Source of the DNA: Alphaproteobacteria bacterium
Lineage (GTDB): Bacteria; Pseudomonadota; Alphaproteobacteria; M2410
Length of the DNA: 39,040 nt
NCBI GenBank assembly: GCA_030614785.1
Contig: JAUWTJ010000033.1
Span: 1-39,040, forward strand
Direction: 5' to 3'
A program made the position numbers and the translations under genes. The number at the start of each line of letters is the position of its first letter. Position 1 is the first letter of the stretch. Below are positions 9,139 to 35,633 of the stretch, piece by piece. The notes beneath the pieces were generated by a model. The model was not told where the DNA came from. It saw only the letters and a program-made list of their open reading frames with translations, and searched no databases.

Positions 9139-10329
9139 TCATACTCTGGCCAGGTGTTCAGGCCGCCGCAACTCCTTCGCCAGCCCCTCTCCCATCAGAT
9201 CAATAAAATTATCCGCATAGAAACCATTGATCGCCGATTGCGGCAATCCTTCAAGGCTCTGGTCAAACCGCTTGAGCGGATTGCGCCCACCTTCCACATG
9301 GGGGTAGTCGGTGGAAAAGAGACACATCTCTTCGCCGGAATTGGCGATAATCCAGCCGGCATCTTCATGCGGATAGGGCGCGACCCTGAGCTGGCGCATC
9401 GCGATCTCCGACGGTTTGGCCGACAGCTTCTGCAGCCGCTCCTCATTGCGCATGAAGGCGTGCGCCGCTGAATCCATAGCCCGCATCCAGCCGGGCAGCC
9501 AGGCAGCCCCAAGCTCGACCACGCCCCATTTCAGCTGCGGGACCCGGTCAAACACGCCGTCGAAGATCAGCGTGGCCAGGGTCTGCATCACTGAAGTCGG
9601 GATCGGCATGTAGCTGACGGATGTGAAATTATCGTCGCCGCCATGGAAATCCGGCACCGGAGGCAACCCGTTTTCCTTATAGGTCTTGTTCAGCTTGTCC
9701 TCGCCGCCCACATGGAAGAGGACCGGGATGCCCGCTTCCTGCGCCATCTCCCAGACCGGGAAGAGACCAATGTGGCTCGGCCCGTGGTTCTGCGGACACG
9801 AGGAGGGGACCATCAGCGCCTTGGCGCCAAGCTCGATCGCCTCTTTTGTTACTTGCGCCGCGCGGTCAAAATCTTCCAGCGGCACATAGGCGGTCGCAAG
9901 CAGGCGTTTGTCGACGCTGCAAAAGTCGGTCATCATCCGGTTATGCGCCGTGGCCGCGCCGTAGCACAGCTCCATGTCGCTCCCCCGGTCGAGACCAAAA
10001 TTGCCGAGGCAATAAGTGGTGAAGACAAGCTGGCTCGCCACCCCGATGAGATCCAGCGTCTTGGGGCGATCCTCGCGAAGAAAGGCGCCGTGCGCCTCAT
10101 AATTCTTCCGTAGCATGATGTTTTCGTCGATGCCGCCGCGAAATTCCGGATCGCCCTGAACCGTGCGGGCCTTCTCCTCCCACCGGCCATTGCCCACTTT
10201 CACGCCCACAGCATCAAGTGCGTGGTAGCGATCAAGCAGCTTTTTCTCAAAATAAGGGTCAAGACAATCCGACAATTCCATCAAGTGACTGTCGGCATCA
10301 TGCACCAGACGCCCTTCAATATAAGCCAT
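9139..10329 (-). CDS. Amidohydrolase_2-family metal-dependent hydrolase
   Basis: A 396-residue TIM-barrel hydrolase of the amidohydrolase/ACMS-decarboxylase group. The metal-binding start motif appears as DADSH near residue 11, a histidine ligand as LFHVGG near the middle, and the late aspartate as FSTDYPHVEGG near residue 345. Members hydrolyse or decarboxylate cyclic and aromatic carboxylates; the substrate here cannot be told. The start has a strong GGAGGAAAG seven bases upstream. It stands alone between the thioesterase gene (convergent) and the AT-richer patch at 10.4-11.05 kb. Confidence 0.85.
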   Translation of the reverse strand: MAYIEGRLVHDADSHLMELSDCLDPYFEKKLLDRYHALDAVGVKVGNGRWEEKARTVQGDPEFRGGIDENIMLRKNYEAHGAFLREDRPKTLDLIGVASQLVFTTYCLGNFGLDRGSDMELCYGAATAHNRMMTDFCSVDKRLLATAYVPLEDFDRAAQVTKEAIELGAKALMVPSSCPQNHGPSHIGLFPVWEMAQEAGIPVLFHVGGEDKLNKTYKENGLPPVPDFHGGDDNFTSVSYMPIPTSVMQTLATLIFDGVFDRVPQLKWGVVELGAAWLPGWMRAMDSAAHAFMRNEERLQKLSAKPSEIAMRQLRVAPYPHEDAGWIIANSGEEMCLFSTDYPHVEGGRNPLKRFDQSLEGLPQSAINGFYADNFIDLMGEGLAKELRRPEHLARV

Positions 10330-10417
10330 ACTTTCCTCCCCGGGTGGTCTTTTGATTGCTTGATTGGAACTCTAACAATTCAAAAGACGCCTTGTCCATG
10401 GGGAGCCGCAGACAGTC

Positions 10418-10448
10418 ACTCCGCCGCTTCCGGCTCGGCCGGCAGCGC
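10418..10448 (-). repeat. Duplicated gene 3' end, copy 1 (encodes ...AEPEAAE stop)
   Basis: These 31 bases match 11053-11083, the last codons of yghU, at 28 positions. On the minus strand both read through AEPEAAE to TGA. Further upstream in the same minus-strand frame, residues NAHIRVAKGPLALP can be read without a stop, but no intact gene contains them. This is either the remnant of a lost gene or a duplicated 3' end left by insertion of the DNA between the two copies. Confidence 0.55.
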
Positions 10449-10481
10449 CAAAGGCCCTTTGGCCACGCGAATGTGAGCGTT

Positions 10482-10525
10482 ACTGTACAGTTTACAATTG
10501 CACTCTCTCCGGCTGCTCATATAGC
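10482..10525 (+). promoter_or_regulatory. Candidate promoter and operator for the small membrane protein
   Basis: TTGCAC (10498-10503) and TATAGC (10520-10525) are separated by 16 bases, a plausible sigma-70 promoter about 50 bases before the start codon. A perfect ten-base palindrome, actgtacagt, at 10482-10491 lies just upstream of the -35 element, where an activator or repressor could bind. Confidence 0.4.
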
Positions 10526-10575
10526 TTCAAGTTCTGAGCCGAAAAGCCGATTCACAGTTGGCGGGGGGAGCCGAG

Positions 10576-10881
10576 ATGAGAAGAACAAGGGTATTTGCAA
10601 ATTTCATTTACTTGCTCGCATTCGTCCTTCCGTTTGTGGGCATGGCAAGCTGCTCGTGGCCAAATCAAGCATTTGCTGCTGCTGTTAGCTGCACGATTGA
10701 CAGCCCATTCATGCACGACTACGCGAACTTTTATTCATTCCTGATATACGGCACAGTCTGGTTGCTGTGGATTCCTTTGATCTTGTACACAATTGGCATT
10801 GTGTTCATTACTGAAGTTACAATTCGATTATTGAGGGTTGGCGGCGTTGTCGCCCAAAGGCGATCTTCAAAACGCGACTGA
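10576..10881 (+). CDS. Small membrane protein, unknown function
   Basis: A 101-residue protein I do not recognise. An N-terminal hydrophobic stretch (about residues 8-24) ends near Cys and Ala-rich sequence and could be a cleaved signal peptide (cleavage near QAFA) or a first helix. A second, long hydrophobic run (about 52-85, FLIYGTVWLLWIPLILYTIG and on) is a clear membrane helix, and the tail is basic (RRSSKRD). The ATG at 10576 follows GGGGGGAG by about five bases and is preferred to the TTG at 10558. Local base composition is AT-richer than the neighbours, and the gene lies between two copies of a short gene-end repeat, which suggests acquired DNA. Confidence 0.55.
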   Translation: MRRTRVFANFIYLLAFVLPFVGMASCSWPNQAFAAAVSCTIDSPFMHDYANFYSFLIYGTVWLLWIPLILYTIGIVFITEVTIRLLRVGGVVAQRRSSKRD

Positions 10882-10912
10882 ACATTTATAGATAAACGTC
10901 TCAGGCATTTAT

Positions 10913-10992
10913 TTTGGATGTGTGATACTTCTGCTTTGCTCAGGATAATATTTTAGCTTTGCTGGTACATCCAAATGGCGCACAAAGTATCA
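10913..10992. other. Interleaved inverted pairs (possible RNA pseudoknot)
   Basis: tttggatgt (10913-10921) is complementary to acatccaaa (10967-10975), and tgatactt (10923-10930) is complementary to aagtatca (10985-10992). The order A-B-A'-B' is that of a pseudoknot rather than nested stems. It lies 30 bases after the small membrane protein gene, so it could end or protect that transcript. Confidence 0.3.
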
Positions 10993-11050
10993 TGTAGAAA
11001 ATGATCTGTGACCAGATCAAAATTCATCACCTCCACAACACCCTGAGTTC

Positions 11051-11938
11051 TTACTCCGCCGCTTCGGGCTCGGCCGCCAGGGCTGCATCAATTTCGCTGG
11101 CATCGTGGCGCTCGGCGAGATTTTTCTCACCCCAGGTCCGATTGACGATGCGCCCGCGCTGGGCCGCTTCACGCGCTGCGATGGCGTCCGCCCAGCGATT
11201 CACATTCTTGTAGGTGTGGCACTCGATAAACTCGGCGGAGCCATAAAGCTGGCCCTTGGCGAGCGCGCCATACCATGGCCAGATGGCGATATCGGCTATG
11301 CTATACTCATCGCCGCACATGTAGGTGTTCTCGGCCAGATGGCGGTCGAGCACATCAAGCTGGCGTTTGATCTCCATGGTGTAACGATCAATCGCGTATT
11401 CAATGGCAATCGGCGCATAGGCATAAAAATGCCCGAAGCCGCCCCCCAGAAACGGAGCGCTGGCCATCTGCCAGAACACCCATGAAAGGCACTCGGCCTT
11501 CCCGGTCGGGTCTTGCGGGTAAAGCGCGCCGAATTTTTCGGCCAGATAGACCAGCATCGCGCCTGATTCAAAAATCCGAATGGGTTCCGCGCCGGAGTGA
11601 TCCATCAGCGCCGGGATCTTGGAATTCGGATTGGCCGCAACAAAGCCCGAGCTGAACTGATCGCCATCGCCGATGTTGATCAGCCAGGCGTCGTAGTCCG
11701 CGCCCTTGTGCCCAAGCGCCAGCAGCTCTTCCAGCATGACGGTAATCTTGACCCCGTTGGGTGTCCCGAGCGAATAAAGCTGAAACGGATGCTTGCCGAC
11801 GGGCAAGTCCTTTTCATGGGTCGCCCCGGCGATGGGCCGGTTAATCTTGGCAAAGCGGCCACCGCTTTCGGTCTCCCATTTCCAGACTTTGGCGGGTTCA
11901 TAGCCTTCGGGCAGGCCTGGACGCTTCTCCTCACTCAT
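11051..11938 (-). CDS. yghU: YghU-type glutathione S-transferase (disulfide-bond reductase)
   Basis: A 295-residue cytosolic protein of the nu-class GST group, which reduces disulfides using glutathione and protects against peroxides. A long N-terminal extension with GLPEGYEPAKVWKW precedes the thioredoxin-fold domain (LYSLGTPNGVKITVMLEE at about 53-70). NPNSKIPALMD and IFESGAMLVYLAEKFG are the glutathione-site loop and the ESGA motif, and a helical C-terminal domain follows with IADIAIWPW. Length and motifs match E. coli YghU. GGAG stands about eleven bases before the ATG. The Ala/Glu-rich tail AALAAEPEAAE is the segment repeated at 10418. Confidence 0.93.
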   Translation of the reverse strand: MSEEKRPGLPEGYEPAKVWKWETESGGRFAKINRPIAGATHEKDLPVGKHPFQLYSLGTPNGVKITVMLEELLALGHKGADYDAWLINIGDGDQFSSGFVAANPNSKIPALMDHSGAEPIRIFESGAMLVYLAEKFGALYPQDPTGKAECLSWVFWQMASAPFLGGGFGHFYAYAPIAIEYAIDRYTMEIKRQLDVLDRHLAENTYMCGDEYSIADIAIWPWYGALAKGQLYGSAEFIECHTYKNVNRWADAIAAREAAQRGRIVNRTWGEKNLAERHDASEIDAALAAEPEAAE

Positions 11939-26405: not shown

Positions 26406-28133
26406 CTAGTTGGCCAGCCGCTGAAGGTGCTCGTTCAGAGCGGCGTTTTTAGCCAGCAACTTGAAGCGCTCCATCGGCTCCATGTCCTGCTCGCACGGAT
26501 CCCCGTTGACGGGGAATTTTACGGCGCCAAGCGCTTCGGTGAAATCAGCCGCCCGCATAAAGCTGGCGACATGCCGCGCGGCCCCGGAGGCACAATTTCC
26601 CTGGGTCAACACTCCGGCCTCGAGCAGACGCAAGAGCGTTACGGCCTTCTCAGCCGAAGACACTTTTCGTTCCGCAATTGACTGGAACAGCTTTCCCTTG
26701 ATCTCGACCCTTGCAGAAAGACTGTCAAAGTCGTCCATCACCTTGTGCTTTTCTTCATCCGGAAACCCGGATTCCAGAACCCGAACCTGAAGCGAGGCCA
26801 GGCGCCCGAGGCGGCGCAACAGCGGCTCCTCTGAATTCATGAACTGCGGCTCCATTTTTGGACCCGTCAGTATGGGAACAATATAGTCGACAAGGCGCGC
26901 CTTGTTGGCGTCGCCAATGATATTTTCCTCCAGATCAAGCAGCAAATCAATTCGCTCGTCCGGGGTCATCGCCTCGGCCATATATTCTTCGGCCATCTCC
27001 GGCATGGTCAGCCGCGTCGAGCGCCTTTCAAAGGCCGAAATAATATCGCCGATCGAGGCCATCGGCCCCTGACACAGAACCATGCGCTTGGCGAGGCGGC
27101 GCGTCACATCAACCTCGCGGTGAATGTCGTCGGGGCTGAGGCGTTTGATGCCGTTCAGCTCGCCAAGAACGCGCCGCAGCACCGAGCTACGCGAATGCTG
27201 CAACTGATCCTTGCCAAAACACTTCGCCAGACGGGTCAGGCCCTGGTTTTTGGCAATCTCCGGATTGTCGGTTTTGCCGAGGAAGAGATCGACCAGCAAC
27301 AGGAGCGATTCCCCGAGATCCGGTTGCTCGCCAATCAGGTCGCCCAGCGCCGAGCGCCCGCTCACGATTTCGGAAACAAAGTCATCAACCGAGCTCAGGC
27401 ACATGGTCTGACCCACCTCGTTTGAGGGCAGGTGGTCCATATATTCAAGCAGCACCGAAAGCTTCTCACCCCAGCTATCAGTCTCTTTCAAGGCGTCGGC
27501 AATGGCCCCGCCAAGGATATAGCTCGGCTCCGAGGAGCGCTCCGCCATGTCCCAGGCCCCGGCAAGGTTGTTGCCCTTGATCTTCGGGAAAATTTTAGCG
27601 CGCGCGTCCTTGAAGCATTTTTCCATGCCCTTGGACACAAGCTCGTTGAGCTGTTTCATAACCTCGACAACGGGAAGGTTTGCCGACGTAGACTGAGTAA
27701 TCGCCCATTTCTGCAGCGCATGTTGCAACACGGTGCCGTTGGCCTGCAGTTCCTCGAGCATATCGGCCCGGTGCAGCAGCTCCATCGTGGTCAGGCCCCA
27801 GCGGTTGAGAGCATCTTCCAGAACCCGTGCGATCAGAATGCGCGCGTGAGCAGAATAAAGATCGCGCGGCGTCAGGCAGGGCAGCTGGACCTCTTCTTTG
27901 CCGCGTTTGATGACTTCAAACCCGCCTTCTTCAAAGACGGTAATCGGCAAATATTCTCCGGTCTCCAGATTATGGGTTTCCTTGACCACTCGGGCCCCGG
28001 AGAACGCCTTCTGCAGCAGCGCATATTTGGCAGAGTTCATCGCCGCAGCGCGCTCGTCATACGCCTCGTGCAAGACCCAGGTCTTCTGACCTGCCTTGAT
28101 AATAAAAACTTCGTAGTGAATCTTCTTCGCCAT
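26406..28133 (-). CDS. Large protein of unknown function next to the tRNA-Gly island
   Basis: A 575-residue soluble protein I do not recognise. Residues 1-80 look like a small beta-rich domain (KKIHYEVFIIKAGQKTWVL) with an Ala-rich helix. The remainder (about 95-575) is almost wholly helical, with many Leu, Glu and Lys residues, arranged like a helical-repeat scaffold; there are no catalytic motifs and no membrane segment. The start has only a weak ribosome site. The full-length, high-quality reading frame and GC-rich codons mark it as resident chromosome, and it ends the resident block just before the left island boundary at about 28.3 kb. Confidence 0.7.
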   Translation of the reverse strand: MAKKIHYEVFIIKAGQKTWVLHEAYDERAAAMNSAKYALLQKAFSGARVVKETHNLETGEYLPITVFEEGGFEVIKRGKEEVQLPCLTPRDLYSAHARILIARVLEDALNRWGLTTMELLHRADMLEELQANGTVLQHALQKWAITQSTSANLPVVEVMKQLNELVSKGMEKCFKDARAKIFPKIKGNNLAGAWDMAERSSEPSYILGGAIADALKETDSWGEKLSVLLEYMDHLPSNEVGQTMCLSSVDDFVSEIVSGRSALGDLIGEQPDLGESLLLLVDLFLGKTDNPEIAKNQGLTRLAKCFGKDQLQHSRSSVLRRVLGELNGIKRLSPDDIHREVDVTRRLAKRMVLCQGPMASIGDIISAFERRSTRLTMPEMAEEYMAEAMTPDERIDLLLDLEENIIGDANKARLVDYIVPILTGPKMEPQFMNSEEPLLRRLGRLASLQVRVLESGFPDEEKHKVMDDFDSLSARVEIKGKLFQSIAERKVSSAEKAVTLLRLLEAGVLTQGNCASGAARHVASFMRAADFTEALGAVKFPVNGDPCEQDMEPMERFKLLAKNAALNEHLQRLAN

Positions 28134-28290: not shown

Positions 28291-28367
28291 TCATTAAGAG
28301 TTTCTGGAGCGGGCGATGAGGGGCGAACTCCGGGAGCTAACTTGGGCAAGGCTCCCCTGGCTCTTGA
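28291..28367 (-). repeat. Left attachment-type repeat: degraded tRNA-Gly 3' copy
   Basis: Bases 28291-28320 match 31043-31072 at 28 of 30 positions, with a 20-base identical core at 28301-28320 that contains the 3' CCA end and acceptor stem of tRNA-Gly. Weaker similarity continues through the anticodon arm (taacttgggcaagg here against taaccttggcaagg in the tRNA) to about 28367. It cannot fold as a working tRNA: the T-arm and D-arm are altered. This is the expected scar of integration into a tRNA 3' end. Confidence 0.75.
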
Positions 28368-29108
28368 TGGATTAAGGGCGCGAGATTGTTTCGCACATCC
28401 AAGGGCTACCCTTTAACAAAATGTTAGAGCATAGACCCGCAGCGCTGGATCTGTGGTGGACTTCGGCTAGCAATGCCAAATTGGGTTCAGTGGGCGTTCG
28501 AATTTCGAACACCGAGCTGTAAGACCCTTCACGACTAAGGGTTGCTTATAGCTATAGCCTTCTGCCCAAGTAGCTCTACTCCTGCCACAGAATGATTTCG
28601 ACGGCCAAGTAGTGACCAAACTTAATGTCCTCGGTGCCTTCATTGAACTGAAAGGTATGGAGTTCGACGGGGAGACGATGCATTGAGGGTCGGCGCTATC
28701 TGGTAAGCCAGGGGCTTGTGGTCTTTTCACACAGCCAAGGGCAACCCTTTAAGAAATTCCTTACGTCAATACCTTGGAAGCCCAATTCGAAACCAGCCGC
28801 TCTCAGGGGGCTCCGACAGACTTGGGCGGCGAGACGTTGCATTGACGGAGCACGCGTATCCAGTGTCCGTCGACCGAGAGCAAGGAGCCACCAACCGGAC
28901 ATCGAGGCAATAACACCTTGGCGCGCCCAAGACGAAAGAGTAGCCTTGCGGTCTAATCCATAACTCGACACAGAGCCACTGCGCCTCGCAATTTTTCTGT
29001 TAACTACTTTCCGAGTGCGCGAAGGAAATTTGAATCTGATATCAAGGGCTTAGTTCGAAACGTGGTTAATGCAACGATGGCGGCACTACGAAACGGAAGA
29101 AACAATGC
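28321..29108. other. Gene-free, repeat-bearing left half of the island
   Basis: No supportable intact gene. Two pairs of decayed repeats are present: 28394-28420 and 28730-28756 (24 of 27 identical), and 28672-28689 and 28831-28848 (16 of 18). The second pair reads in frame as GETMH-stop and GETLH-stop, so these may be 3' ends of decayed related genes; about 40 codons are open before the first. gttcgaatttcgaac at about 28496 is a short palindrome. The stretch could instead encode a structured RNA for the abi gene downstream. Confidence 0.4.
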
Positions 29109-29137
29109 TTGACGTGGGACTCAGCTTATCCAATAAC
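29109..29137 (+). promoter_or_regulatory. Candidate promoter of the abi operon
   Basis: TTGACG (29109-29114) and AATAAC (29132-29137) at 17 bases, matching the sigma-70 consensus at five and four of six positions. Transcription would start near 29144, just before the hairpin at 29150-29190. Confidence 0.45.
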
Positions 29138-29149
29138 GGATACAACAAC

Positions 29150-29199
29150 ACCCCCCACGCCTCTCGTAAGATCGGCGCACCTTGGGGGGTTACTTTTTT
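29150..29199 (+). terminator. Terminator/attenuator hairpin directly before the abi start codon
   Basis: Arms accccccA (29150-29157) and TGGGGGGT (29183-29190) pair perfectly and enclose a second stem CGCC/GGCG (29158-29161 and 29174-29177). Six T follow at 29194-29199, and the abi ATG is at 29214. This is the shape of an intrinsic terminator placed in the leader, so most transcripts from the promoter at 29109 would end after about 55 bases. Confidence 0.6.
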
Positions 29200-29213
29200 C
29201 TGGGGCGGCCATC

Positions 29214-30131
29214 ATGGTCAAATTTGACAAACCCCAGACCACTGTTTCCGATCATGTTGAGCGTCTAAAAGGCCGAGGGATGACCTTTGCCGATGAAGCC
29301 TTTGCAAAGCATTGCTTGGCCCATATCGGGTATTACAGGCTTACGTCCTACTGGCTGCCATATGAAGCAGACCACGGCACGCACACTTTTCACGCAGGGA
29401 CGTCATTTGAAACTGTCCTAGGCCACTATGCCTTTGATCGAGAACTTCGGTTGCTAGTGATGGACGCAATCGAACGTATTGAAATTTCCATGCGAACGCG
29501 GTGGGCCTTCGAACTGGCGAATGCACATGGACCACATGCACACCTCCTGCCGGCCCTGTTCATGTCCAAATTCGGTCAAGGAGGAAGGACTGTCTGGGAC
29601 CATCAGAGGGGCATTGAGGACCTGGAAAAGGAGCAGAGCCGAAGTCGAGAAACATGGGTGAAACACTTTCAGTCCAAATATGACGAGCCCCTGCCTCCAC
29701 TATGGGCAACTTGTGAACTCATGACGCTCGGTGCTTTTTCCAAATGGTACAGCAACACAGCAAGCGATCGTTTGCGCAAAAATGTCGCAAGATCATATGG
29801 CCTGGACATGCAAATTCTGACGTCATTCCTTCATCACATTGCGGTGGCTAGAAACATCTGCGCTCACCACTCGCGTCTTTGGAACAGGAGCTTCACCTTT
29901 GTGTTGAAACTTGCGCGCCACCCAAGAGACCTCAACTCCAGCCTCAACGCTACTGAAACCCGTAAGATCTACAACACTCTGACGATGCTGGCTTATTTGA
30001 TGGAACAGATTAGCCCTGATACCGCTTGGAAGAAAAAGGTACTTGAAAGCATAGATCGGCGCAGTATTGACGTGATGCAGATGGGCTTTCCAGCCAATTT
30101 CAAGACAACGCCAGTCTGGCAAGGTATCTGA
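29214..30131 (+). CDS. AbiD/AbiF (Abi_2) family HEPN-type protein
   Basis: A 305-residue protein of the Abi_2 (AbiD/AbiF) abortive-infection family, presumed RNases that stop host growth after phage entry. The N-terminus VKFDKPQTTVSDHVERL followed by IGYYRLTSYWLP (about 38-49) is the family opening; RELRLLVMDAIERIEISMRT is the central helix. RNICAHHSRLWNR, with Arg213 and His218, fits the HEPN RX4-6H catalytic signature. The ATG at 29214 matches family starts; a TTG at 29109 would read through the hairpin and add 35 poor residues. Base composition differs from the flanking chromosome. A membrane-anchored protein gene follows at 37 bases. Confidence 0.85.
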   Translation: MVKFDKPQTTVSDHVERLKGRGMTFADEAFAKHCLAHIGYYRLTSYWLPYEADHGTHTFHAGTSFETVLGHYAFDRELRLLVMDAIERIEISMRTRWAFELANAHGPHAHLLPALFMSKFGQGGRTVWDHQRGIEDLEKEQSRSRETWVKHFQSKYDEPLPPLWATCELMTLGAFSKWYSNTASDRLRKNVARSYGLDMQILTSFLHHIAVARNICAHHSRLWNRSFTFVLKLARHPRDLNSSLNATETRKIYNTLTMLAYLMEQISPDTAWKKKVLESIDRRSIDVMQMGFPANFKTTPVWQGI

Positions 30132-30168
30132 CCTACCGGCAACCACTGGCAAATAGTGGGAATCCAAA

Positions 30169-30849
30169 ATGAATGAGATACTTACGTTCGCGCAGCAGTC
30201 CCTCGTGGAGCCCACTATGGCATTTCTGGCCTGGCTCCCTCAGGCTGTGTTAGCCGTCACTGCTATCTTCGCTGCCAACGTTTGGCGGAAACAGGTCCGA
30301 GAGCCGCACCGTCTTGATGTTGCACGGAAAACAATTATTGTTGCCAGCAAGATTCAGGATCAACTGACGGAAGCGCGCCGCTCAAATGCTGTTCGCAGGA
30401 CACAAGTCAAATCATACCTCGATCTGTTGGAAGGTGATGAAAAGAACACGGAAGCCACTTATGACACGTTGAAGCATTGTCTCCCAATCGATGGGGGAGA
30501 AGGCTTGCAGCAACTGAATTGGGAAGCTTTGGAACAAGTCTATGAGCTGCGGGCGCAGGGTTTAGAAGACACCTCAAAGGCGATGGAACGCCTCCGGTCA
30601 AAGGTTCAACACTTTCGTTTTATGGCGCAATTCGCTGCAAGCGCCATTACCCTTCCACATAGGAGGTTATTGCCAATCGAAAATTGGGACCCCTCCGTTT
30701 GTCTTGAGCTCCAAAGCGAAAATAAAATCGAAGGTGGTGGAGTTATAGCCATCATAAGGAACTATGAAGACCCATTCGCAAAGAGCATTACAGCTTTGCT
30801 GTCAGATATTACCGACCAAATGATGGTCATTATCGACCCCAAAAAATAA
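30169..30849 (+). CDS. Membrane-anchored protein of unknown function, abi partner
   Basis: A 226-residue protein I do not recognise. One membrane helix (about 16-38, MAFLAWLPQAVLAVTAIFAA) is followed by a basic stretch and then a cytosolic, mostly helical region (about 45-170) with coiled-coil-like heptads, ending in a small mixed domain with IIRNYEDPF and MMVIIDPKK. It begins 37 bases after the abi stop, with GGGA before the ATG, so the pair is probably one operon. Its position suggests it senses membrane damage or localises the Abi protein; that is inference. An inverted repeat at 31005 may end the transcript. Confidence 0.65.
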   Translation: MNEILTFAQQSLVEPTMAFLAWLPQAVLAVTAIFAANVWRKQVREPHRLDVARKTIIVASKIQDQLTEARRSNAVRRTQVKSYLDLLEGDEKNTEATYDTLKHCLPIDGGEGLQQLNWEALEQVYELRAQGLEDTSKAMERLRSKVQHFRFMAQFAASAITLPHRRLLPIENWDPSVCLELQSENKIEGGGVIAIIRNYEDPFAKSITALLSDITDQMMVIIDPKK

Positions 30850-30948
30850 ACCCGCCAGAAACCTTGTAGCTGGGCGCCAACGTGAGATGTTTGCAGAAGG
30901 AGGGCGCTCTCACAAAGAGGAGCTAAATCAGGTCGAAAAATCTCAAAG

Positions 30949-31026
30949 TGGCACCAGGCTGGCACTAGGCTGGCACCAGAGGCCAAATGACAGGGCAACC
31001 ACGAGTGTGCCACCTCTATGGCACAC
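30949..31026. repeat. Cluster of TGGCAC repeats beside the tRNA-Gly attachment site
   Basis: Three tandem 11-base units (tggcaccaggc and variants) at 30949, 30960 and 30971, then a perfect 8-base inverted repeat gtgtgcca/tggcacac at 31005-31026 with a 6-base loop. TGGCAC therefore occurs five times in 78 bases, four in one direction and one reversed. The arrangement resembles arm-type integrase sites next to a tRNA crossover point. The inverted repeat, with TTGTTTT 12 bases later, could also terminate the island operon. Confidence 0.5.
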
Positions 31027-31042
31027 CAATAACATATTGTTT

Positions 31043-31072
31043 TCATTGAGAATTTCTGGAGCGGGCGATGAG
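31043..31072. repeat. Right attachment-type repeat, overlapping the tRNA-Gly 3' end
   Basis: Matches 28291-28320 at 28 of 30 positions; the identical 20-base core is 31053-31072. It contains the encoded CCA, the discriminator base and the 3' acceptor strand of the intact tRNA-Gly. Confidence 0.75.
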
Positions 31073-31131
31073 ATTCGAACTCACGACCCTAACCTTGGCA
31101 AGGTTATGCTCTACCCCTGAGCTACGCCCGC
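31057..31131 (-). tRNA. tRNA-Gly (GCC anticodon)
   Basis: The minus strand folds as a complete tRNA: acceptor arm GCGGGCG/CGCCCGC with discriminator T and encoded CCA (31057-31059), D-arm GCTCAGGGGTAGAGC, anticodon stem-loop AACCTTGCCAAGGTT with GCC centred, and T-arm GTGAGTTCGAATCTCAT. It reads glycine GGC/GGU codons. Its 3' end is duplicated at 28305, marking the island boundary. Confidence 0.97.
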
Positions 31132-34668: not shown

Positions 34669-34866
34669 ATGGCTGATATTGAAACGGATATTGATCCCAA
34701 ACTGCTTGAAATTCTGGTCTGCCCGGTGACCAAAACGGCGCTGGTCTTTGATCGGGAGGCCGGGGAGTTGATCTCAAAGGCGGCAGGCCTTGCCTATCCG
34801 ATCCGCGACGGCATCCCGATTATGTTGCCCGAGGAAGCGCGCGAGCTGTCTGCCGAGGAAAAGTAG
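34669..34866 (+). CDS. Trm112-family (UPF0434/YcaR-type) small protein
   Basis: A 65-residue single-domain protein. [14 protein letters not shown] (14-27) and [18 protein letters not shown] (45-62) are the two conserved blocks; the bacterial YcaR-type group keeps only the first of the zinc cysteines seen in eukaryotic Trm112. Archaeal and eukaryotic homologues activate methyltransferases; the bacterial role is not settled. GAGGA lies eight bases before the ATG, and it begins 21 bases after the LON-domain gene. A bidirectional terminator follows at 34906. Confidence 0.88.
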
Positions 34867-34905
34867 ATTTGTCTCAGACACAAAAAGACCCGAACCCAAA
34901 AAGAA

Positions 34906-34928
34906 ATGGCGGCCTTTATGGCCGCCAT
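34906..34928. terminator. Bidirectional terminator
   Basis: Perfect nine-base arms atggcggcc (34906-34914) and ggccgccat (34920-34928) with a five-base loop. On the plus strand CCTCTTTTGTT follows; on the minus strand TTCTTTTTGGG follows. It ends both the cnoX operon and, from the other side, the small gene at 34958-35035. Confidence 0.85.
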
Positions 34929-34957
34929 CCTCTTTTGTTCAGAGTTGAAGGGACTGG

Positions 34958-35035
34958 TTAGACGAGTTGAAAAACAGAACCGAAAACCAGAAGGCCGGAT
35001 GCAACTGCGATAGCGAGGTTTGCAAAAGTGGTCAT
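34958..35035 (-). CDS. 25-residue membrane peptide, unit 1 of a tandem pair
   Basis: ATG at 35033-35035 through TAA at 34958-34960. Residues 6-24 are nearly all hydrophobic, with one turn-like S-G and one G-S, forming one membrane helix. GGAG stands nine bases before the start. A sigma-70-like promoter (35097-35125) lies upstream and a terminator directly downstream, so it is a complete one-gene unit. Its neighbour at 35340 encodes a peptide of exactly the same length with 11 of 25 residues identical without gaps. Function unknown; type I toxins and regulatory membrane peptides have this size. Confidence 0.65.
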   Translation of the reverse strand: MTTFANLAIAVASGLLVFGSVFQLV

Positions 35036-35096
35036 TTTATTTCTCCAGTGTTTAAATTTTGAATTCGTGTGAAGGACTATCTCCTTCGTTGATGAG

Positions 35097-35125
35097 TATT
35101 TAGGTATCCCCTGAACGACCTTCAA
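35097..35125 (-). promoter_or_regulatory. Candidate promoter of the unit 1 membrane peptide
   Basis: On the minus strand TTGAAG (35125-35120) and TAAATA (35102-35097) stand 17 bases apart. Transcription would start near 35090, giving a leader of about 55 bases. Confidence 0.5.
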
Positions 35126-35281
35126 GACACATGAGTGCCGATTGTGACGGCTGTACGGCGGTTGTGATCTCTGAACATTTTCGGCTCCCCTAAGCGTTTT
35201 GAGAGACGCTCCGAACTGCCCCTAAATCGGCAGTGTGGTCCTCATCACAAAAAATTCGCAGATAAGAAACCGTCCACAAAC

Positions 35282-35314
35282 GAGAAATGGCGACCTTGCG
35301 GGGCCGCCATTCTC
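35282..35314 (-). terminator. Hairpin after unit 2, related to the terminator of unit 1
   Basis: Stem gagaaatggcg.cc pairing with gg..ccgccattctc, one mismatch, with the same aaatggcg core as 34906-34928 but with a weak T-tract. It lies about 103 bases downstream of the unit 2 start, as 34906-34928 does for unit 1 (107 bases). Confidence 0.5.
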
Positions 35315-35339
35315 ATACTCGTTGATTGTTTATTGCGCT

Positions 35340-35417
35340 CTAGATCAGCTGCATGATGGATCCGAGAACCAGGCCGCTTGAAATTACAACAACACAAAAA
35401 TTGGTGATCATGGTCAT
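35340..35417 (-). CDS. 25-residue membrane peptide, unit 2 of a tandem pair
   Basis: ATG at 35415-35417 through TAG at 35340-35342; a second ATG two codons later is also in frame. The peptide starts MTMITN, has one hydrophobic helix (about 7-23) and ends MQLI, against FQLV in unit 1. Shared positions include Met1, Thr2, Asn6, Ser13, Leu16-Val17, Gly19-Ser20 and Gln23-Leu24. GAGGAG lies about seven bases before the start. Similar flanks on both sides (gtgatc..tgaacatt at about 35164 and 35569, and related hairpins after the stops) show that the whole transcription unit was duplicated. Confidence 0.65.
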   Translation of the reverse strand: MTMITNFCVVVISSGLVLGSIMQLI

Positions 35418-35633
35418 AGTCGTTCTCCTCTGTTTAACTTTGGCCTGAGCACCTTGCCCCTTGGCCGCCTTTGTTAGAGGAGAGATGGGAGCCGAACCCG
35501 CCTTTCAATGCAAAGCCATTTACACAAGGGAAGTTTCTCTGGAAAACTCTCAAAGCCCCGCGCAAACTGTGATCAGTGAACATTGGGGGGCCTCGCAACA
35601 CTGCAGCCCCGCCACACCTCGGGAGGAGAACTG

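Follow-up and report, generated by a model that had tools for sequence, protein, structure and literature searches.

Two copies of a tRNA-Gly 3' end enclose a putative RNA antitoxin, a predicted RNase gene and a gene for a membrane-anchored protein in the window, by which we mean the whole stretch of 39,040 nucleotides analyzed here. The features of the locus are as follows.

28291-28351, minus strand: displaced and decayed 3' half of tRNA-Gly with its downstream flank (far att copy), 80% identical to 31043-31103; its extent, from the 3' end to the anticodon arm, is as in the perfect 50-nt half on contig C205 of the relative G002
28352-29108, no strand: non-coding DNA, at the position of the integrase and arm sites in comparable elements, as judged from L085, L119 and L120
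29109-29137, plus strand: candidate promoter of the abiF RNA, TTGACG-17-AATAAC, weak, read by eye and unreported by the consensus scanner
29143-29194, plus strand: abiF RNA (putative RNA antitoxin), a terminator-like hairpin and then a T run, with the Rfam core at 29151-29190
29214-30131, plus strand: predicted AbiF/AbiD HEPN RNase toxin, 305 aa, R213-x4-H218 intact (PF07751, PADLOC AbiD, PDB 8VZ6)
30169-30849, plus strand: orphan protein of 226 aa with a single N-terminal transmembrane helix, encoded 37 nt downstream of abiF
30948-31024, no strand: arm-like GGCAC repeats at 30950, 30961, 30972, 31007 and 31020, the first three at 11 bp spacing
31030-31042, no strand: IHF-like site TAACATATTGTTT, a 12/13 match to YAANNNNTTGATW
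31043-31103, minus strand: tRNA-side att copy, the 3' half of the intact tRNA with its flank, from the repeat alignment
31057-31131, minus strand: intact tRNA-Gly(GCC), the integration target (ARAGORN; Rfam 68.7 bits)

The sequence-only reading of this DNA had described an island that held only an AbiD/F protein, a membrane-anchored protein and non-coding DNA. These three are present; however, that reading overlooked the abiF RNA (29151-29190) as well as the arm-like repeats and the IHF-like site (30948-31042). The cargo had been assigned by family to phage defense or toxin-antitoxin systems, which still holds, and the RNA antitoxin makes the assignment more specific, to abiF RNA plus AbiF.

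The longer reading frame of AbiF, from 29109, matched PF07751 with 191 bits (2.6e-56) and PADLOC AbiD with an E-value of 4.2e-69. An alignment to PDB 8VZ6 spanned the entire protein (E 1.2e-47) and placed R213 and H218 opposite R210 and H215, the residues of PbAbiF that are required for activity (PMC12373285). Upstream, the RF03085 match at 29151-29190 scored 35.4 bits (E 6e-5), which is 1.6 bits below the gathering score of 37. In a nine-sequence alignment of the abiF RNA, all ten pairs were standard pairs (100%), four of them had changed on both sides, and the pairing exceeded that of all 500 shuffles. The element is likewise found upstream of AbiF in the closest relatives. Therefore, both features of an AbiF type III module, a HEPN protein with R-x4-H and an abiF RNA upstream on the same strand, are present. 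In C. difficile, abiF RNA binds and neutralizes AbiF and reduces its transcription (PMC12373285). By analogy with these experiments on relatives, the AbiF studied here would be toxic and would be neutralized directly by its abiF RNA.

The 226-aa reading frame that follows abiF has a gene-like codon pattern, and the hydropathy maximum of its product lies at residues 17-35. Searches of GTDB, IMG/VR, plasmids, phages, Pfam, PADLOC, PHROGs and NCBIfam returned no convincing relatives; a lone weak match was obtained in G232 (32% over 100 residues), and the AlphaFold model (pLDDT 40) was unusable. The position of this gene so close behind abiF on the same strand, its codons and its single transmembrane helix may suggest that the module has three parts, with the membrane protein acting as a functional partner to anchor or gate the RNase. 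We consider this improbable because an evident relative of the protein was present at none of the AbiF loci examined and because abiF RNA plus AbiF are sufficient in C. difficile (PMC12373285).

The 20-mer TTTCTGGAGCGGGCGATGAG occurs in two exact copies, at 28301-28320 and 31053-31072. The sequence-only reading regarded this direct repeat as the 3' end of tRNA-Gly and its left copy as a degraded tRNA. The former was confirmed, and the 20-mer belongs to a longer, ungapped repeat of 61 nt with 80% identity (28291-28351 versus 31043-31103) that reaches the anticodon arm. The two copies differ at 12 of 61 positions, one of which lies within the 7-nt anticodon loop. On the tRNA-body side beyond the 20-mer, 21 of 31 positions are identical (binomial P ~7e-7), and on the outer side the likeness runs 14 nt past the tRNA 3' end. 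The latter claim stood in part: the left copy is decayed, but it extends no further than the anticodon arm and thus represents a 3' half that was displaced, as opposed to an entire tRNA that degraded. The intact tRNA-Gly(GCC) at 31057-31131 on the minus strand is the sole tRNA gene of the window.

Next to this tRNA, GGCAC occurs five times within 80 bp, and the next densest spot of the window holds three. The IHF-like site lies 14 nt from the tRNA and differs at one position from the IHF consensus YAANNNNTTGATW. The end beside the tRNA preserves features of the integrase type, namely the five arm-like repeats and the IHF-like site. The repeat GGCACCANNNNGGCACCA alone proves nothing because an integrase was nearby at only 4 of 30 loci that carry it. 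Similarly, the pattern TAACNTANTGNTTT beside tRNA-Gly was found in 16 stretches from GTDB, of which many had no evident integrase in the vicinity, and thus supports an att end only in combination with the repeats.

The likeness that continues 14 nt outside the tRNA is also what an old duplication of the tRNA-Gly end would give, in which case no integrase island existed and unrelated foreign genes were brought between the copies by other means. A short second copy of the tRNA 3' end, accompanied by a terminator, does occur in the relative G003. However, the left copy in the window reaches only as far as the anticodon arm, as do the displaced halves of G002, G086 and G118, and signals of the integrase type are located exactly at the tRNA-side end. 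This origin is, in our view, very unlikely.

The family relative G002 provides an integrase-bearing parallel. Its contig C205 begins with a perfect 50-nt tRNA-Gly half, followed by GGGCACCAGAC repeats with an 11-bp period and then by an intact P4-type integrase with Arm-DNA-bind_3 and Phage_integrase domains. Its contig C194 (JAJFIN010000273.1, Alphaproteobacteria bacterium OFTM322) carries the C-terminus of a type I restriction subunit (HsdR), GGGCACC repeats, a perfect IHF-type site and an intact tRNA-Gly, and the IHF-type site is 14 nt from the tRNA, the same distance as in the window. The two contigs are not joined, and we infer that they are the two ends of one island. With these contigs as a template, the window retains the tRNA-side arm and has no integrase-side arm.

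Three further loci from the same class as the window (Alphaproteobacteria) combine AbiF, a tRNA and an integrase. In G118 (L120), a tRNA-Lys has a displaced perfect 49-nt half; the integrase adjoins this half, AbiF adjoins the tRNA, and a perfect IHF-type site lies beside the tRNA. In G147 (L118), AbiF adjoins a tRNA-Ser, and the integrase is approximately 7 kb off. In G086 (L119), a tRNA-Arg has a displaced perfect 50-nt half; the integrase adjoins this half, and AbiF in turn adjoins the integrase. In two of these three examples, AbiF thus lies next to the tRNA and the integrase at the other end. A general enrichment of AbiF beside tRNAs was also considered and is not claimed: the counts were 3 of 11 loci in the class (ARAGORN, 1.5 kb), 1 of 27 in the phylum and 1 of 30 for the ParE control. 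In the wider phylum sample of 27 AbiF loci, one had a tRNA in its vicinity and one an integrase. Since AbiF is seldom beside a tRNA in that sample, tRNA islands are one of several homes of AbiF, and we describe the association as recurrent, not general.

No integrase gene lies within the repeat-bounded interval, as had been noted from the sequence, and the host genome (148 contigs, 99% complete) encodes no integrase other than XerC/XerD; a resident helper integrase was rejected on this ground. A search for an integrase remnant in the island by tblastn, with the G002 integrase and the long ORFs of two pattern-matched loci (some integrase-like) as queries, returned hits at chance level. The stretch 28352-29108 does not have a gene-like codon pattern, DNA relatives of it were absent from plasmids, and we counted this long non-coding stretch against the explanation as a tRNA island. 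It contains imperfect direct repeats (78-80%) in the pairs 28376-28420/28712-28756 and 28660-28689/28819-28848. No cluster of arm-like repeats was detected on the left side of the island. Islander, which reported anticodon-centered attachment sites in 2083 islands, requires an integrase gene (PMC4383910). The locus has the intact tRNA and a correctly oriented displaced cognate fragment, albeit decayed; however, it has no integrase inside, and we therefore file it as a remnant and not as an active member.

The sequence-only reading left two options for such an element, decay or a passenger that borrows the integrase of another element. A passenger of the cis-mobilizable type would be moved by a foreign integrase through common arm sites, and the preserved repeats and IHF-like site on the tRNA side, together with the integrase and matching repeats of G002, are consistent with this. 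However, the genome has no integrase beyond XerC/XerD, and the left side has no arm-like repeat cluster. Tyrosine integrases normally require identity where strands exchange, and one of the 12 differences between the 61-nt copies lies in the 7-nt anticodon loop, the expected exchange site. The one-base difference in the loop and the loss of the left arm repeats make borrowing less likely, and we regard this option as doubtful at best. The decayed element is the well-supported one of the two, given that the integrase side and any integrase remnant are missing, only Xer proteins are encoded in the genome, and the displaced half has decayed.

The island also stands out by its composition. Its GC content is 0.507 against 0.582 (sd 0.016) across 104 equal-size blocks, and its tetranucleotide distance of 0.37 makes it the top outlier of the window (highest other block, 0.246). 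These values bear out the sequence-only claim that the intervening DNA is unlike the chromosome, and the repeat, the displaced half and the composition together support a tRNA-Gly island. The presence of the same 28.3-31.1 kb DNA in place in relatives, with chromosomal composition, had been named as grounds for rejecting an island; none of the relatives examined shares this DNA. The island interior was unmatched in 59 relatives, AbiF was not found in the same-family genomes searched, and the left flank is common to none of the relatives examined. No true empty site was seen among the genomes examined, of which none was found to be of the same genus, and the family relatives carry other islands or scars at the tRNA site. 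Outside the island, low-GC stretches occur at 10251-11250 and 34751-35500 (GC down to 0.45 and 0.48, respectively).

The surroundings of the island yielded further observations. In G003 (L037, G003:C84 9116-10509), the same tRNA-Gly is adjoined by genes for HTH and Fic-domain proteins that resemble the mobile mystery A/B pair, and 173 bp off, 22 nt of the tRNA 3' end are duplicated together with a separate terminator. From G003, the tRNA-Gly site looks like a recurrent integration spot. The 575-aa gene to the left of the island (26406-28133) has no Pfam match; a paralogue with 68% identity is located elsewhere in the genome (G000:C20:10644-12116), and a homologue in G002 adjoins a gene that looks like PEP carboxykinase.

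We conclude, with a probability of roughly 0.8, that the locus is the remnant of a tRNA-Gly integrase island that carries an RNA-controlled AbiF and has lost its integrase side. Recombination at the anticodon arm would have brought the island into tRNA-Gly(GCC), with a P4-type (Arm-DNA-bind_3) tyrosine integrase as the most likely catalyst. The 3' half carried by the island would have restored the tRNA, and the half originally present would have been displaced to 28291-28351. The end beside the displaced half, including the integrase and arm sites, was presumably lost later; the displaced half decayed, and the island may have become fixed in place. The abiF RNA, transcribed from immediately upstream, would hold the AbiF HEPN RNase in an inactive state, and the terminator-like hairpin of this RNA may also restrict abiF transcription. 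Phage infection or loss of the locus, among other events, could upset this balance; the RNase would then be freed and growth would stop. In this reading, the RNA-held RNase would act in phage defense and possibly as an addiction module.

The locus illustrates that the decay of a mobile element can leave its defense gene behind as a fixed trait of the chromosome. It also points to one alphaproteobacterial home of RNA-regulated AbiF toxins, tRNA islands moved by P4-type integrases. These toxins are relatives of proposed Cas13 ancestors, and in a review AbiF is described as being ancestral to Cas13 (PMC12737573). Potential novelty is limited to the orphan membrane protein and the proposed preservation of island stumps by AbiF. 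AbiF modules near the tRNA end may preserve that end by addiction after integrase loss, giving fixed "AbiF stumps", with the orphan membrane protein as a possible new third component; this proposal is speculative and rather unlikely.

The locus joins two known kinds, the AbiF type III module and the tRNA-island remnant, and is a well-preserved example. As in Islander-type tRNA islands with a P4-type Arm-DNA-bind_3 integrase, the tRNA is regenerated, the displaced 3' fragment ends at the anticodon arm, and arm-like repeats and an IHF-type site are present; in contrast to them, it has no integrase, its displaced fragment is decayed, and it spans only 2.7 kb. The islands of G118, G086 and G147 similarly carry AbiF on an element between the tRNA and the integrase end, with AbiF beside the tRNA in G118 and G147, whereas theirs have an intact integrase, a length of 8-10 kb and, in G118 and G086, perfect displaced halves. 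With AbiF-RCd22 (C. difficile phi027) and PbAbiF-AbiFr (PDB 8VZ6), the locus shares an abiF RNA hairpin directly upstream of an R-x4-H AbiF, a terminator-like RNA and a mobile-element setting. However, the AbiF described here is only distantly related to theirs, and RCd22 has two Rfam-detectable abiF motifs, whereas one is present here. The module of the present study is located on a chromosomal tRNA-island remnant and not in a prophage lysis module.
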